Positions 4,718 through 11,203 of a stretch of DNA of 64,000 nucleotides are shown here, in pieces. This DNA comes from an uncultured Thiohalocapsa sp. Lineage in GTDB: Bacteria; Pseudomonadota; Gammaproteobacteria; Chromatiales; Chromatiaceae. The position numbers were made by a program, and so were the translations under genes. The first letter of the stretch is position 1. Every line of letters begins with the position of its first letter. The stretch is taken from positions 62,001 through 126,000 of the forward strand of contig NZ_CAJXYK010000012.1 of assembly GCF_913063425.1 (NCBI RefSeq), given 5' to 3'. The notes beneath the pieces are model-generated. The model was not told the origin of the DNA. It ran no database searches and saw only the letters and a list, made by a program, of their open reading frames with translations.

Positions 4718-5161
4718 TCAGGCCGGCGCCGCCTGCGGCCAATGGTCACCGAGAATCTCGTCGATGGTCCAGGGGCAAGCGGCCGGAAAGGCGTCGTAGT
4801 CGAGCGGCGTCTCTGCAACGGCAAGGTCCACACCATCGGCATAGGCCCGCTCGATGACCTGCCCCAGCCCGGCGCGCAGGCTCGGATTCTCATCCAGCAG
4901 CTGTGCCAGTGACCGGCGCTGGGTATTGATGGTCGCACGCCAGGACTTGCGGTTCGGATAGTCGGGCTGATGGCGCCACTTGAGCAGATGCCCCAGCAAC
5001 ACCCCGAGCCGGCTTTGCAGCGCCCGGCGCTCCCGTTTGCCCAAGTCCTCGATCTCCTCGGCGACGTGCTCGACGTCGAGCTGACTGAAGCGGCCTGCGC
5101 GCAGCAGGCGCGCCTGCTCCAGCGCCCAGGCGTAAAAGTCGGCGTCGTAGTCGCTGGCCAT
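4718..5161 (-). CDS. DUF29 family protein inserted between urtD and urtE
   Basis: The 147-residue product starts MASDYDADFYAWALEQARLL at 5161. DUF29 features are visible: the opening Asp-Phe-Tyr-Ala-Trp stretch, the segment VEHVAEEIEDLGKRERRALQ, and LGHLLKWRHQP followed by a helical tail. DUF29 proteins are small, soluble, helical and of unknown role, common in cyanobacteria and purple bacteria. The gene lies 46 bases after urtD and 138 bases before urtE on the same strand, so it is probably co-transcribed with the urea transporter. Whether it acts on transport is unknown. It may be a passenger. A longer start at 5215 would overlap urtD and is less likely. Confidence 0.85.
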   Translation of the reverse strand: MASDYDADFYAWALEQARLLRAGRFSQLDVEHVAEEIEDLGKRERRALQSRLGVLLGHLLKWRHQPDYPNRKSWRATINTQRRSLAQLLDENPSLRAGLGQVIERAYADGVDLAVAETPLDYDAFPAACPWTIDEILGDHWPQAAPA

Positions 5162-5207
5162 GCTGGCTGTTCGGGCGGTGTCGTGGTGCGGAAACCCTGG
5201 CCGGAGT

Positions 5208-6107
5208 CTACTCACCCAGATACACCTCCACCACCCGCGGGTCGTTCTGCACCTGGTCCATGCTCCCCTCGGCGAGGACGCTGCCCTGGTGCAGCACGGT
5301 GACGCGGCGGGCGATGGAGCGCACGAAGTCCATGTCGTGCTCCACGACGACGACGGAATGCTTGCCCTGGAGAGACAGCAACAGCTCCGCGGTGCGGTCC
5401 ATCTCCTGGTGGGTCATGCCCGCGACGGGCTCGTCCACCAGCAGCAGCAGTGGGTCCTGCATCAACAGCATGCCGATCTCGAGCCACTGCTTCTGCCCGT
5501 GGGACAGACTGCCCGCCTCGCGGCGAGCGTGCTCGGTGAGGCCGATGGTCTCCAGCACCTCGTCGATGCGCTCCCGCTGTGCCGCGGTGAGCCGCGCCAG
5601 CAGCGTCGGGAAGACGCGCTTGTCGGCGGCCATGGCAAGCTCCAGGTTCTCGAACACCGTGTGGTGCTCGAACACCGTGGGCTTCTGGAACTTGCGGCCG
5701 ATGCCGATCTCCGCAATCTCGGGCTCGGTGAGCCTGAGCAGGTCGATCTTCTGGCCGAAGTACACACTGCCGGAGTCAGGCCGCGTCTTGCCGGTGATGA
5801 TGTCCATCATGGTCGTCTTGCCGGCGCCATTGGCACCGATGACGCAGCGCAGCTCGCCGGCGTCCACATAGAAATTGAGATGATCGATGGCCTTGAAGCC
5901 GTCGAAGCTCACGTTCAGGTCCTCGATGTACAGGATCGGGCCATGGCTCACGTCCAGCTCCAGGTCCTTGGCCTTGACCATGAAGTCGAAGGTCCGGTCC
6001 CGGCGCATGCTCTCCTTGAACTGGAGCCACGCCCGCTGCTGGGCACTGAAGTCGAAGGCGCGGTCCCGATGCAGCAGGTCGCGCCCGTTGTCGACCATCT
6101 GACTCAA
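5208..6107 (-). CDS. urtD: Urea ABC transporter ATP-binding subunit UrtD with N-terminal module
   Basis: The second ATPase of the urea importer. Visible motifs are Walker A GANGAGKTT, signature LSHGQKQWLEIGMLL, Walker B LLLLVDEPVAG and VVVVEHDMDFV. The core starts at GPILYIEDLNVSFDGF. Ahead of it sit about 50 residues with two copies of an R-R/H-D-R-x-F-x-F motif (HRDRAFDF and RRDRTFDF). That module is nearly copied by the small ORF just upstream. The start is uncertain. TTG at 6107 has an AGGAGG site seven bases away. ATG at 6098 lacks a site at good distance. TTG at 6113 would overlap the upstream stop as TTGA. Translation is probably coupled to the small ORF. Confidence 0.93.
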   Translation of the reverse strand: MSQMVDNGRDLLHRDRAFDFSAQQRAWLQFKESMRRDRTFDFMVKAKDLELDVSHGPILYIEDLNVSFDGFKAIDHLNFYVDAGELRCVIGANGAGKTTMMDIITGKTRPDSGSVYFGQKIDLLRLTEPEIAEIGIGRKFQKPTVFEHHTVFENLELAMAADKRVFPTLLARLTAAQRERIDEVLETIGLTEHARREAGSLSHGQKQWLEIGMLLMQDPLLLLVDEPVAGMTHQEMDRTAELLLSLQGKHSVVVVEHDMDFVRSIARRVTVLHQGSVLAEGSMDQVQNDPRVVEVYLGE

Positions 6108-6109
6108 GC

Positions 6110-6271
6110 TCAATCCTCCTGCTTCCGCCCCTTCGCCTTGACCACGAACTGGAACTGTCGGTCGCGGCGAATGGACTCCCGGAACTGCTGCCAAGTCTGG
6201 CGCTGGCCCCGAAAACTGAAGGCGCGGTCGCGGCGCAGCAGGTCCCGCGGCGTATCTTTGCTCATGCTCAT
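6110..6271 (-). CDS. 53-aa small protein copying the UrtD N-terminal module
   Basis: A short ORF between urtC and urtD begins MSMSKDTPRDLLRRDRAF and ends with TGA at 6110. Its ribosome site, aaggaggt, is near perfect and about six bases from the ATG, so translation looks strong. Over 40 aligned residues I count 26 identities with the UrtD N-terminal extension. Both contain RDLL-x-RDRAF-x-F, then W-x-QF-x-ES-x-RRDR, then F-x-F-x-VKAK. The module is therefore duplicated, once free and once fused to the ATPase. The product is very basic and has no membrane segment. Function is unknown. A role in binding UrtD partners, membrane phospholipid or RNA would be speculation. A second in-frame ATG at 6265 is also possible. 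Confidence 0.8.
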   Translation of the reverse strand: MSMSKDTPRDLLRRDRAFSFRGQRQTWQQFRESIRRDRQFQFVVKAKGRKQED

Positions 6272-6368
6272 GGAGTTACCTCCTTACTTCAGATCCTGCG
6301 CCTCTGCGCCGTTCACTCGAATGAACGACCGGGAAGCAGCAGATCATGCGGTTGACTTTGCATATTGC

Positions 6369-7526
6369 TCATGCGGCTGCGCTCTGCGCAGCCGCACCGC
6401 TGCGGCGGCGCTTCAGCTGCCGAAAGAGTCCGGCGATGCCTTGGGGCAGAAACAGGGTCACCAGCACAAAGAGGCCACCGAGGGCGAACAGCCAGGCCTC
6501 AGGAAAGGCGCCGGTGAAATAGGTCTTGCCGTAGTTGACGACGATGGCGCCGATGACCGCGCCATAGAGCGTCGCCCGGCCACCGACGGCCACCCAGACC
6601 ACCAGCTCGATACTGTTCAGGGGTGAGAACTCCCCCGGGTTGATGATGCCCACCTGGGGCACGTACAGGGCGCCGGCGATGCCCGCAAGCATGGCCGAGA
6701 AGGTCCAGATGGCGACCTTGACGCGGTCCACCCGGTAGCCGATGAAACGGGTGCGGGCCTCGGCATCCCGAATGGCCACGGCCACCCGACCGAGCTTGGA
6801 CGTGACGATCCAGCGGCAGGCGAGATAGCCCAGCGCCAGCGCCACAGCCGACGCGACGAAGAGCCCCACCCGGGTGCTGTCCGCCTGCAGGTTGAAGCCC
6901 AGCATGTCCTTGAAATCGGTCAGACCGTTGTTGCCGCCGAAGCCCATCTCGTTGCGGAAGAAGGCAAGCATCAGGGCATAGGTGAGCGCTTGCGTGATGA
7001 TGGACAGGTAGACGCCGGTGACGCGGGAGCGGAACGCCAGCCAACCGAACACGAAGGCCAGCGCCCCGGGCACCAGCACAACCATGAGCGCCGCAAGCCA
7101 AAACATGTCGAAGCCGTGCCAGAACCAGGGCAGCGCCTGCCAGTCCAGGAACACCATGAAGTCCGGCAGAACCGGGTCGCCGTAGACGCCACGGTCGCCG
7201 ATCTGGCGCATCAGGTACATGCCCATGGCATAGCCGCCGAGGGCAAAGAAGGCGCCGTGCCCCAAGCTCAGGATGCCGAGATAGCCCCACACCAGGTCCA
7301 CGGCCACCGCCAGCAGCGCATAGGTCAGGTACTTGCCGAGCAGGGTCACCGTGTAGGTGCTGACGTGCAGCGGATGGCCCTCGGGCACGGCCAGATTCAG
7401 CACCGGCACCACGACGGCCACCGCAAGCAGCAGGCCGAGCATCACCTGCCCGCCGGTATCACCCTTCAACAGCGCCAATGGACCGAACCCCGCGTTCGTA
7501 AATATCGGTTGAAAACCTCGTGACAC
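6369..7526 (-). CDS. urtC: Urea ABC transporter permease UrtC
   Basis: LivM-type inner-membrane permease of the urea importer, 385 residues with about ten hydrophobic helices. Typical UrtC stretches are DLVWGYLGILSLGHGAFFAL, YAMGMYLMRQIG and FGGNNGLTDFKDMLGFNL, plus the loop before the last helices, AEARTRFIGYRVDRVKVA, which contacts the ATPases. The start used is GTG at 7526. It falls inside a 13-bp perfect inverted repeat, which would put the start codon in a hairpin. A TTG about 16 codons downstream is an alternative. The gene follows urtB by 135 bases and precedes the small ORF by 97. Confidence 0.94.
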   Translation of the reverse strand: MSRGFQPIFTNAGFGPLALLKGDTGGQVMLGLLLAVAVVVPVLNLAVPEGHPLHVSTYTVTLLGKYLTYALLAVAVDLVWGYLGILSLGHGAFFALGGYAMGMYLMRQIGDRGVYGDPVLPDFMVFLDWQALPWFWHGFDMFWLAALMVVLVPGALAFVFGWLAFRSRVTGVYLSIITQALTYALMLAFFRNEMGFGGNNGLTDFKDMLGFNLQADSTRVGLFVASAVALALGYLACRWIVTSKLGRVAVAIRDAEARTRFIGYRVDRVKVAIWTFSAMLAGIAGALYVPQVGIINPGEFSPLNSIELVVWVAVGGRATLYGAVIGAIVVNYGKTYFTGAFPEAWLFALGGLFVLVTLFLPQGIAGLFRQLKRRRSGAAAQSAAA

Positions 7527-7661: not shown

Positions 7662-9725
7662 CTATCCTTCAGCCGCCCGGCCCCGCTGCGGGAACAGCCC
7701 ACGCGGGCGCCACTGGATGAACAGGATGATGAACACCAGCACCAGAATCTTCGCCAGCACCGCACCGGTCCAGGGCTCCATGAACTTGTTCGCCACGCCG
7801 AGCGTGAGCCCGCCCACCAGGGTGCCCCAGAGATTCCCGACACCGCCGAAGACCACCACCATGAAGGAGTCGATGATGTAGGCCTGCCCCATGTTGGGGC
7901 CCACGTTGGTGAGCTGCGACAGGGCCACGCCGGCGACCCCCGCGATGCCGGCGCCGAGCCCGAAGGTGAGCGCGTCCACCCGCGCCGAGCGCACGCCCAT
8001 AGCCCGCGCCATGGCCCGGTTCTGGGACACGGCCCGCACCTGAAGACCGAGCGCCGTGCGCTTCAGCACCAGCAGCAGGGCCACGAACACCAGCAGCGCG
8101 AAGACGAAGATGTAGAGCCGGTTGAAGGTGAGCGACAGCGCCGGATTCAGCTGAAGCGAGCCGCTCATCCAGCTCGGGTTCTCGACAATGACGTTCTGCG
8201 CCGAGATGGTCGTGCGCACCAGCTGCTGGAGGATCAGGCTGAGACCGAAAGTCGCCAGCAGCGTCTCCAGCGGGCGCCCGTACAGGAAGCGGATCACGCC
8301 CCGCTCAATGGCCACGCCGAAGAGCCCGGCGACCAGAAACGCCGCCGGGATCGCCACGAAGAGCGACCAGTCGATGGCATTGGGCATGGCCAGCTGCACC
8401 AGGTAGGTGGTGTAGGCGCCGATCATGATGAGCTCGCCATGGGCCATGTTGATGACCCCCATGACACCGAAGGTGATGGCGAGCCCGATGGCCGCCAGCA
8501 CCAGCACCGAGCCCAGACTCAAACCGAAGAAGACGGTCTCCAGACGGCGCATGTTCTTGACCCGCTGCGCCATGTCGGCCCGCGCCGCCTCGGCCGCCGC
8601 CAGCACGGCCGGGTCCTGCTCGGTGCCGATCAAGTCATCCAGGGCGTTACGCGCCTCCGGATAGAGGCTGGTGCCCAGCGCCTGGACCGCCGCCATACGC
8701 TCCGCCGGCGACTCGGCCTGGAGGCCGGCGACGGCCAGCGCCAGCTCGATGGCGTCGCGCACCTGGGGGTCCTCCTCCTGTGCCAGCTGCGCCCGCAGCG
8801 CCGCCACGCCGGTGTCGTCCACGTCACCCATCATCTCCTTGGCGGCGGACAGCCGTTGCGCCGGGTCCGGGCTCGCCAGCGTCAGCGCGGCGATGTCAGT
8901 GCGCAGCGCACTGCGCATGCGGTTGTTGATGGTGATCTTGCGGGCGTCGCGGCTGCCGACGCTGCCGAGGTCGTCGCCGGTGAGGGCGTCCGTGAGCGCC
9001 CAGCCGCCGCTGGTGCGCTCGGCGTAGACGATGCGGTTGTCATCGCGCCGGTAGTAGAGGTCGCCCTCAAGCAAGGCCTTCAGGAACTCCGCGGCACGGG
9101 GGTCACCGCTTGCGGCGATGTCCGCCGCCGCCTGTTCTTTGACCTTGAAGGAGCGGTCCGTGAGCTTCGCCAGGGCCGCCGCGAGGCTCGGCGGCTCCGG
9201 GCCGCTCGCCACGGCTGCTGCGTCGCCCGCGCTGTCCGTTCCCACGGCCTCGTCCGGTGTCGGGGCTTCGGCGCCCGCGGCCTGCGATGACGCCGGGGGC
9301 TGCTGCTCCTGCGCTGTTGCCGGAACCTCTGCCCCGGAGACCGCCCCCGCGCTGTCGTTCGCCGAAGCGGCCGCGGCGGCAGTCCGGTCCGTGGTCCCGG
9401 ACATCGTCGCTTCGGTGTCTCGTGCGCCTGCGGCCTCCGGCTGCAGCGCTGCCTCGGCCGATGCCGATGCACCAGACTCAGCCGCCGCGTCCGTGAGCAC
9501 GGACGGCTGCATCGGCGCCGACTGCTCGTCGGACACCGCACCGATGGCGGACTGCTCAAGCGTCAACTCCGGGGCCGACTGCCCCCAAGCCATGCCGCAG
9601 ACAAGCATCAGCGCCGCCCACAGCGACGCCCTGCTGCACTGGCTTGGGGCGCCCGCCTGGGGCAGGTGTCCGGCACTTGCGCTCAATGGACGCGATCTAC
9701 GCATCAGTGGAGGGATTCCCTGCAT
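7662..9725 (-). CDS. urtB: Urea ABC transporter permease UrtB with enlarged periplasmic region
   Basis: LivH-type permease, about 687 residues from ATG at 9725 (ATG at 9704 is also possible). After a hydrophobic export segment (SLWAALMLVCGMAWG) comes a run of about 110 residues very rich in Ala, Ser, Glu and Pro. A helical, HEAT-like region follows (ALAKLTDRSFKVKEQAAADI), as found in proteobacterial UrtB. The permease core starts at about RLETVFFGLSLGSVLVLAAI and includes GVINMAHGELIMIGAYTTY and RAMARAMGV. The low-complexity linker is unusual for the family. It could hold the periplasmic domain away from the membrane. The frame continues to 9878, but those residues overlap urtA and look artificial. 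Confidence 0.93.
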   Translation of the reverse strand: MQGIPPLMRRSRPLSASAGHLPQAGAPSQCSRASLWAALMLVCGMAWGQSAPELTLEQSAIGAVSDEQSAPMQPSVLTDAAAESGASASAEAALQPEAAGARDTEATMSGTTDRTAAAAASANDSAGAVSGAEVPATAQEQQPPASSQAAGAEAPTPDEAVGTDSAGDAAAVASGPEPPSLAAALAKLTDRSFKVKEQAAADIAASGDPRAAEFLKALLEGDLYYRRDDNRIVYAERTSGGWALTDALTGDDLGSVGSRDARKITINNRMRSALRTDIAALTLASPDPAQRLSAAKEMMGDVDDTGVAALRAQLAQEEDPQVRDAIELALAVAGLQAESPAERMAAVQALGTSLYPEARNALDDLIGTEQDPAVLAAAEAARADMAQRVKNMRRLETVFFGLSLGSVLVLAAIGLAITFGVMGVINMAHGELIMIGAYTTYLVQLAMPNAIDWSLFVAIPAAFLVAGLFGVAIERGVIRFLYGRPLETLLATFGLSLILQQLVRTTISAQNVIVENPSWMSGSLQLNPALSLTFNRLYIFVFALLVFVALLLVLKRTALGLQVRAVSQNRAMARAMGVRSARVDALTFGLGAGIAGVAGVALSQLTNVGPNMGQAYIIDSFMVVVFGGVGNLWGTLVGGLTLGVANKFMEPWTGAVLAKILVLVFIILFIQWRPRGLFPQRGRAAEG

Positions 9726-9850
9726 TGGGAGCTGTGATGACGGGAGCACTGGTCCGAAAACGGGGGCATCGGCCCAGCCGCCGGCGCCGCGCGCCGGCGA
9801 GCCGGGCTCGAACAACCGGCGCTCCCGCCGCGACGACCCACGCCGCGCCC

Positions 9851-11203
9851 TTACTCCGCGGCCTCGGCGCCGAGGCACTCCTCGGTCTTGGTGTTGTAGT
9901 TGCCGCAGTTGACGGGGTCGGTCCAGTCGCCCTTCAGGTCCTTCGAGCCCTCCAGGTAGTCGGACCAGGCATCGCCGGGCACCTCTTCATCGGTCTGCCA
10001 GACGACGGCAAACTGGCCATCCTCCTGGATCTCGCCGATGAGCACCGGCTTGGTGATGTGATGATTGGGGAGCATCTTGGCCGTGCCGCCGGTGAGGTTC
10101 TTGGTCTCAAGCCCCACGATGGCGTCGATGACGGCATCCGGGTCGGTGCTGCCGGCCTTCTCCACGGCCTTCACCCAGAGGTCGAAGCCGATCTTGTGCG
10201 CCTCCATGGGGTCATTGGTGACCCGGTCCTCGTCCTCGATGAATGTGTGCCAGGTCTCGATGAAGGCGTCGTTCTCGTCCGTGGGCACGCTCATGAAGTA
10301 GTTCCAGGCGGCGAGATGGCCCACCAGCGGCTTGGTGTCGATGCCGGAGAGCTCCTCCTCGCCCACGGAGAAGGCCACAACAGGGATGTCCTCGGCGGAA
10401 ATGCCCTGGTTGCCGAGCTCCTTGTAAAAGGGCACGTTGGCGTCGCCGTTGATGGTGGAGACCACGGCGGTCTTCTTGCCCTCGGAGCCGAACTGCTTGA
10501 TGTCGGCGACGATGGACTGCCAGTCCGAATGGCCGAAGGGCGTGTAGTTGATCATGATGTCCTCATCCGCCACACCGTTCTGCTTGAGGTAGGCCTCGAG
10601 GATCTTGTTGGTGGTGCGCGGATACACGTAATCGGTGCCCGCCAATACCCAGCGCTCCACGCCCAGCTCGTCCTTCAGATAGTCCACGGCCGGGATCGCC
10701 TGCTGGTTCGGCGCCGCGCCGGTGTAGAACACGTTGCGCGAGGACTCCTCGCCCTCGTACTGCACCGGGTAGAAGAGCAGCCCGTTCAGCTCCTCGAACA
10801 CCGGCAGCACGGACTTGCGCGACACCGAGGTCCAGCAGCCGAACACCGCCGCCACCTTCTCCTGATCCAGCAGCTCGCGCGCCTTCTCGGCGAACAGCGG
10901 CCAGTCCGAGGCCGGGTCCACCACCACGGGCTCCAGCTGCTTGCCGAGCAGGCCGCCCTTCTCGTTCTGCTGCTCGATGAGCATCAGCATGGTGTCCTTC
11001 AGCGTCGTCTCGCTGATGGCCATGGTGCCGGAGAGCGAGTGCAGGACGCCGACCTTGATGGTCTCGTCGCCGGCGGCCTCGGTCGCTTCGCCTTCCTCTT
11101 CGGCGTGCGCCAGGCCGCCGCTAAGGCCGACCGTGAGGGCGGCGGCGAGCACAAAGGACTTGCGTCGTGAAATCGTGGACCACAGGGGCAAGGGGTTCCG
11201 CAT
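9851..11203 (-). CDS. urtA: Urea ABC transporter substrate-binding protein UrtA
   Basis: Periplasmic urea-binding protein, 450 residues. The signal peptide has SRRKSF followed by a hydrophobic core and a cut near GLAHA, so export may be by Tat or Sec. The mature N-terminus is acidic (EEEGEATEAAGDE). UrtA hallmarks are IKVGVLHSLSGTMAISE, VFGCWTSVSRKSVLPVFE, LFYPVQYEGEE and PNHHITKPVLIGEIQEDG. It is the first gene of the urt operon. Upstream there is a sigma-54 promoter match and an NtrC-like palindrome, so induction under nitrogen limitation is likely. The C-terminus ends in a short acidic tail after a Cys-containing segment. Confidence 0.96.
   Translation of the reverse strand: MRNPLPLWSTISRRKSFVLAAALTVGLSGGLAHAEEEGEATEAAGDETIKVGVLHSLSGTMAISETTLKDTMLMLIEQQNEKGGLLGKQLEPVVVDPASDWPLFAEKARELLDQEKVAAVFGCWTSVSRKSVLPVFEELNGLLFYPVQYEGEESSRNVFYTGAAPNQQAIPAVDYLKDELGVERWVLAGTDYVYPRTTNKILEAYLKQNGVADEDIMINYTPFGHSDWQSIVADIKQFGSEGKKTAVVSTINGDANVPFYKELGNQGISAEDIPVVAFSVGEEELSGIDTKPLVGHLAAWNYFMSVPTDENDAFIETWHTFIEDEDRVTNDPMEAHKIGFDLWVKAVEKAGSTDPDAVIDAIVGLETKNLTGGTAKMLPNHHITKPVLIGEIQEDGQFAVVWQTDEEVPGDAWSDYLEGSKDLKGDWTDPVNCGNYNTKTEECLGAEAAE

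Follow-up and report, generated by a model that had tools for sequence, protein, structure and literature searches.

Does an open reading frame of 53 codons, placed between the permease gene urtC and the ATPase gene urtD of a urea-importer operon and resembling the N-terminal arm of that same ATPase, specify a protein of use to the transporter, serve chiefly by being translated, or merely survive as the residue of a duplication? The locus is in a stretch of 64,000 nucleotides from an uncultured Thiohalocapsa sp. (the window), where the operon order on the minus strand is urtA, urtB, urtC, the small ORF, urtD, a DUF29 gene and urtE. A sequence-only reading had reported the 53-codon ORF and a strong ribosome site ahead of it, and both are confirmed (6271..6110, minus strand). 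The pertinent features are:

6369..7526, minus strand: urtC, permease (BPD_transp_2), upstream neighbour of the small ORF
6313..6372, minus strand: 19-codon open stretch MSNMQSQPHDLLLPGRSFE, its start overlapping the urtC stop as ATGA; probably what is left of a further, decayed copy, sORF1
6278..6286, minus strand: Shine-Dalgarno site TAAGGAGGT of the small ORF, ending 6 bases before the ATG
6110..6271, minus strand: the small ORF (sORF2), a free copy of the UrtD N-terminal arm, 53 amino acids, ATG start
6115..6119, minus strand: GGAGG, likely Shine-Dalgarno sequence of urtD, inside the small ORF
6110..6113, minus strand: TTGA overlap, candidate TTG start (6113-6111) over the small-ORF TGA stop (6112-6110)
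5208..6113, minus strand: urtD, urea ABC transporter ATPase (TIGR03411, 397.8 bits against a cut-off of 304.1), predicted start TTG at 6113 or 6107
5955..6083, minus strand: N-terminal arm of UrtD, 43 codons with two RRDRxFxF half-modules, paralogous to the small ORF

The likeness that had been noted, 26 identities in 40 positions, is reproduced exactly by ungapped alignment (RDLL to KAKG in the small ORF, RDLL to KAKD in UrtD), as is the construction of the module as a tandem pair built on RRDRxFxF, the half-modules being 22 residues apart. When the whole 5.9 Mb genome is searched with the small ORF, the UrtD arm is matched at E 7.9e-14 (60% over 47 amino acids) and, apart from the ORF itself, nothing else is found at E<=10; with only these two matches, and the arm at such a value, the resemblance is not due to chance, and the description of the ORF as a free copy of the arm is supported. 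At the level of sequence comparison common descent of the two is established. What the small ORF shares with UrtD (TIGR03411) is thus this one module with its two half-modules, whereas it has a start and stop of its own, a basic tail and fixed changes, and is without an ATPase domain, since no Pfam entry, PF00005 included, matches it at E<=10. TIGR03411 does not match it at E<=10 either, and the sole NCBIfam match is below threshold (14.4 bits, cut-off 116). An AlphaFold model of the small ORF (mean pLDDT 60.5, pTM 0.25, one helix at 21-52) is too poor for use.

The genus sample consisted of 10 Thiohalocapsa genomes, nine of them with urtD (G006 is without), and the small ORF is intact in five of the nine: the window's genome, G001 (ML1), G003, G007 and G008 (T. 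halophila). Copies in the other carriers have 74-81% amino acid identity to the window copy, and in all five the ORF sits between urtC and urtD with a purine-rich site at the Shine-Dalgarno place. G002, G004, G005 and G009 have the UrtD arm only, so that urea import in the genus does not depend on the small ORF; urease alpha is present in nine of the ten genomes and missing only in G006. Absence from close relatives had been named beforehand as refuting, and the outcome is divided: the frame is intact in every carrier, but the ORF is absent from four of nine urtD-bearing genomes. In other urt operons of the family the module is common in UrtD N-termini; among the genomes searched, the free ORF was recognised in the five Thiohalocapsa only. 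When 84,980 species genomes were scanned for a pattern, nine loci were confirmed, eight in the Thiohalocapsa group (G004 among them) and one in another Chromatiaceae genus, where the match is inside UrtD. With an alignment of the arm, 44 of 210 family genomes are matched at E<=0.01 (9 of the genus, 32 by UrtD N-termini, 3 unrelated), and no small ORF is recognised outside Thiohalocapsa in these 210, though a strongly diverged copy would escape. An order-level search likewise returned 210 genomes, all of the same family among the matches listed. Matches in G106, G057 and G156 were rejected as further small ORFs, being in unrelated frames, and so was an unrelated match in G069, from another family. 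In an open library of titles, abstracts and some passages, no literature was found that treats this ORF or any free-standing copy of the arm of a Urt ATPase.

Is the frame then maintained for its product? With a codon model for the five species, on the UrtD-body topology, omega over all 53 codons of the small ORF is 0.099 and omega of 1 is rejected (2dlnL 91.7); for a 38-codon core it is 0.033 (2dlnL 101.5). The corresponding figures for the UrtD arm and UrtD body are 0.055 and 0.014. Shifted frames give 2.26 (+1) and 2.19 (+2), on the 49 and 46 codons left after dropping those that read as stop in any species. The small ORF is under purifying selection at the protein level and is a coding gene, not a scar, because of this low omega, its likelihood support and values above 2 in the shifted frames; the check on conservation and dN/dS that had been proposed has thus come out strongly on the side of constraint, and by these sequence measures the ORF behaves as a translated, selected gene in five species, as had been suspected. 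As a supporting check, resting on near-saturated branch lengths, 1000 neutral runs were simulated with the fitted synonymous rate; in none did the frame stay open in every one of the five species, and mean pairwise identity came to 0.14, against 0.77 observed. Since selection acts on the amino acids, the ORF probably encodes a functional small protein, as opposed to a duplication remnant or a mere spacer. Nor does the constraint seem to be borrowed from urtD. In a tree with nine UrtD arms the five small-ORF copies are set off as a single clade (bootstrap 94). Three fixed sites (R21/S, I34/M and G48/D) distinguish copies from arms, as does net charge, which is +7 to +10 in the copies and 0 to +3 in UrtD pieces three residues shorter; this separation and these differences argue against upkeep by gene conversion.

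The reading preferred here, with a probability of roughly 0.45, is that the small ORF encodes a real basic protein which arose from duplication of the urtD 5' end, is co-translated with UrtD and acts on the Urt transporter as an accessory subunit or as a competitor. In the sequence of events envisaged, a duplicated 5' end whose unit length breaks the frame would have become an independent gene, chained to its neighbours by 4-base overlaps, and a strongly basic protein of 53 residues would be made from its own strong ribosome site. The free arm might dock on the surface of Urt that is used by UrtD's own arm, a shared contact being plausible because the small ORF copies that arm and is made just before UrtD; alternatively, as UrtE has no arm, the free arm could serve the UrtE half and dock there. 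By either contact it would tune assembly or activity of the transporter, though its higher charge could mean a different partner. A more specific form of the proposal, that a free-standing copy of an ABC ATPase arm has turned into a new accessory subunit, or a regulator, of a urea importer, its dose tied to that of UrtD by overlapping translation, is put forward tentatively; it might, for instance, provide the UrtE half with the contact that UrtD's arm makes, or compete for that contact. PII, a trimeric signal protein, is unrelated in sequence to the small ORF. In Synechocystis it binds and acts on UrtE and shows no two-hybrid interaction with UrtD (PMC6603209), and the putative parallel is that an ATPase subunit of Urt is acted on by a cytoplasmic protein encoded apart from it. 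AcrZ, SgrT, MgtR, FeoC and LucB are short transporter-linked proteins, some of which alter activity or turnover; the small ORF, a short conserved ORF in a transporter operon in five of nine urtD-bearing genomes of the genus, has the hallmark of such transporter-binding proteins, its own binding being putative, but in the source's passages on these proteins none is described as a copy of a transporter ATPase's own arm (PMC10710835).

The distribution of constraint within the ORF could point away from the transporter. The C-terminal half with the basic tail is its most conserved part (omega 0.038 for codons 27-52, against 0.157 for codons 1-26) and, taken with the shift in charge and the three fixed changes, this would suit a selected protein that has moved to another job, as a small basic peptide binding RNA, membrane or a nitrogen-control protein. 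Yet the ORF has stayed between urtC and urtD in every carrier, both RRDRxFxF half-modules are kept, and the window's genome has no second locus at which the module was found, and a change of employment is considered unlikely, if still to be reckoned with.

For an accessory or competing arm co-translated with UrtD, the junction of the two genes is also pertinent. The ATG at 6098, taken at the outset as the edge and start of urtD, is probably not the start: it is present only in the window's species, the other four carriers having no ATG there. The block GCAGGAGGrTTGAGCTTGAG, in which a single base varies, is common to all five where the small ORF ends, and for this reason the start is placed at TTG 6113 or at the second in-frame TTG, 6107-6105. 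The TTG of TTGAGC occupies the place expected for an ancestral ATGAGC start, and the non-carriers, all four of them, have an ATG start for urtD that overlaps the urtC stop itself (ATGA in three, TGATG in G004). Each of the five carriers has the arrangement of coupled gene pairs, in which stop and start overlap and a Shine-Dalgarno sequence lies inside the upstream gene. The coupling to urtD that had been thought probable fits this layout, in which the small-ORF stop overlaps the likely urtD start, and a weak start beside an overlapping stop is what dependence on ribosomes finishing the small ORF would look like; translation of the small ORF would most likely feed urtD, whose start would have turned into TTG in the carriers. 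Folds of the RNA around the urtD start in the five carriers give unpaired probabilities of 0.24-0.62 for the ribosome site and 0.13-0.64 for the start, and no common structure hiding the site, for or against coupling, is seen in them.

Could this be the whole purpose, the small ORF being mainly a translational device from which ribosomes re-initiate at urtD, with a peptide of little weight? The TTGA overlap, the embedded Shine-Dalgarno sequence and the near-invariance of the block are all congenial to that, as is the direct overlap of urtC with urtD where the small ORF is absent, but a device would have no need of particular amino acids, and the selection on them, most severe in the core, makes it a rather improbable account. 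Less probable again is a regulatory leader peptide, the nascent chain of which would control ribosome stalling and hence expression of urtD: the conserved C-terminal half and the position just before urtD are in keeping with one, whereas a length of 53 codons, derivation from a protein arm, the conservation of the N-terminal core as well and the lack of a consistent RNA switch in the five folds are not. As to ribosomal frameshifting late in the small ORF to yield UrtD with two arms, for which UrtD is in the appropriate -1 frame and the Shine-Dalgarno-like GGAGG lies just upstream, the five aligned ends display by eye no conserved slippery run and the overlap explains the layout more simply, leaving very little in its favor.

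T. halophila has urtC, ORF1 (sORF1, 55 amino acids), ORF2 (the conserved small ORF) and urtD in succession, with every junction a 4-base stop/start overlap (ATGA, ATGA and TTGA). The start-to-start distances are 164 and 158 bases and, since neither is a multiple of three, the copies remain separate genes. Between urtC and the small ORF of the remaining four carriers lies a shorter, out-of-frame stretch that opens on the same overlap. When its core DNA is aligned with T. halophila sORF1, the first 8 and last 22 bases being left out, the score is reached by 6 of 1000 shuffles for the window, 50 for G001, 205 for G003 and 376 for G007, and while it is probably a decayed sORF1 in all four, the DNA comparison is weak evidence except in the window. 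The one locus would then show both fates of a duplicate, with two intact copies in T. halophila and apparent remnants of the second in the other four.

The urtC stop and the first ATPase strand are 167-170 bases apart in non-carriers and 422-495 in carriers. Of 77 family loci, 51, outside Thiohalocapsa and its sister genus g16, have 20-113 bases, and six g16 loci have 188-440, larger because UrtD itself is longer there. Twenty failed the first parse; 19 of these have 89-107 bases by a second pattern with an end point slightly further on, one paralogue being left unmeasured. With distances so short, those family loci offer no room for a small ORF. Tandem duplication of the urtD 5' end, comprising the start region and some 50 codons, is strongly indicated. 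A tree of the operon, which leaves out wrong urtE matches of 33-35% identity in four genomes, groups the window's genome, G007, G008 and G003 at bootstrap 100 and puts G001 outside with weak support; a single group of all five carriers is not rejected (p-AU 0.48), and a single origin, with or without later loss, would fit. An rpoB match was obtained in only six of the 10 genus genomes. In-operon tandem duplication of a gene's 5' end, in a unit that breaks the frame and so gives rise to a selected gene of domain size, would be a route for the birth of small proteins. That the small ORF is a duplication scar open by chance and merely still translated, as the sequence-only reading had offered as its alternative, can be set aside as scarcely credible, for although a tandem copy and the suggested decay of sORF1 in four of five carriers are what a scar might leave, the low omega with its 2dlnL of 91.7, the failure of every neutral simulation to keep the frame in five species, the mean simulated identity so far below that seen, and the distinctness from UrtD arms are not.

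The arm from which the preferred accessory protein would derive is itself outside the curated UrtD model: TIGR03411 begins after it, at residue 58 of UrtD as given, and alignment to solved structures also starts beyond it. The nearest solved relative of the ATPase domain, LivG of Methanocaldococcus (PDB 1g6h, E 6.8e-35), differs in that its alignment starts at that same residue, and neither arm nor small ORF has a counterpart in it. An AlphaFold model of UrtD, with nine close sequences, is too poor for use (mean pLDDT 38.7). UrtD of this family usually has at its N-terminus just one half-module, with RRDRxFxF or a near form at its end. The strict pattern occurs in 38 of the 51 family loci parsed beyond Thiohalocapsa and g16, and a wider class sample has it in 8 of 28 parsed loci; the arm, common in the family, would be a functional part worth study. 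Two half-modules are present in UrtD of Thiohalocapsa and of g16. In one g16 UrtD (L043, from G024) they are arranged differently, as RRDRQFGL...RRDRQFDF, and judging from that arrangement the repeats may have arisen more than once.

Some further observations concern the operon and its relatives. A second urtD, with a short N-terminus without the arm, is present in two genomes (G003:C2:73245-73967, L028, and G009:C39:17962-18684, L027). The DUF29 gene between urtD and urtE (PF01724, E 5.2e-48; window 4718-5170, minus strand) is present, among 12 operons, in those of the window's genome, G008, G001, G004, G002 and the g16 genome G120, and not in the stretches examined of the other six. UrtB (window 7662-9878, minus strand) is long and has similarity to HEAT repeats (PF13646) ahead of its permease domain.
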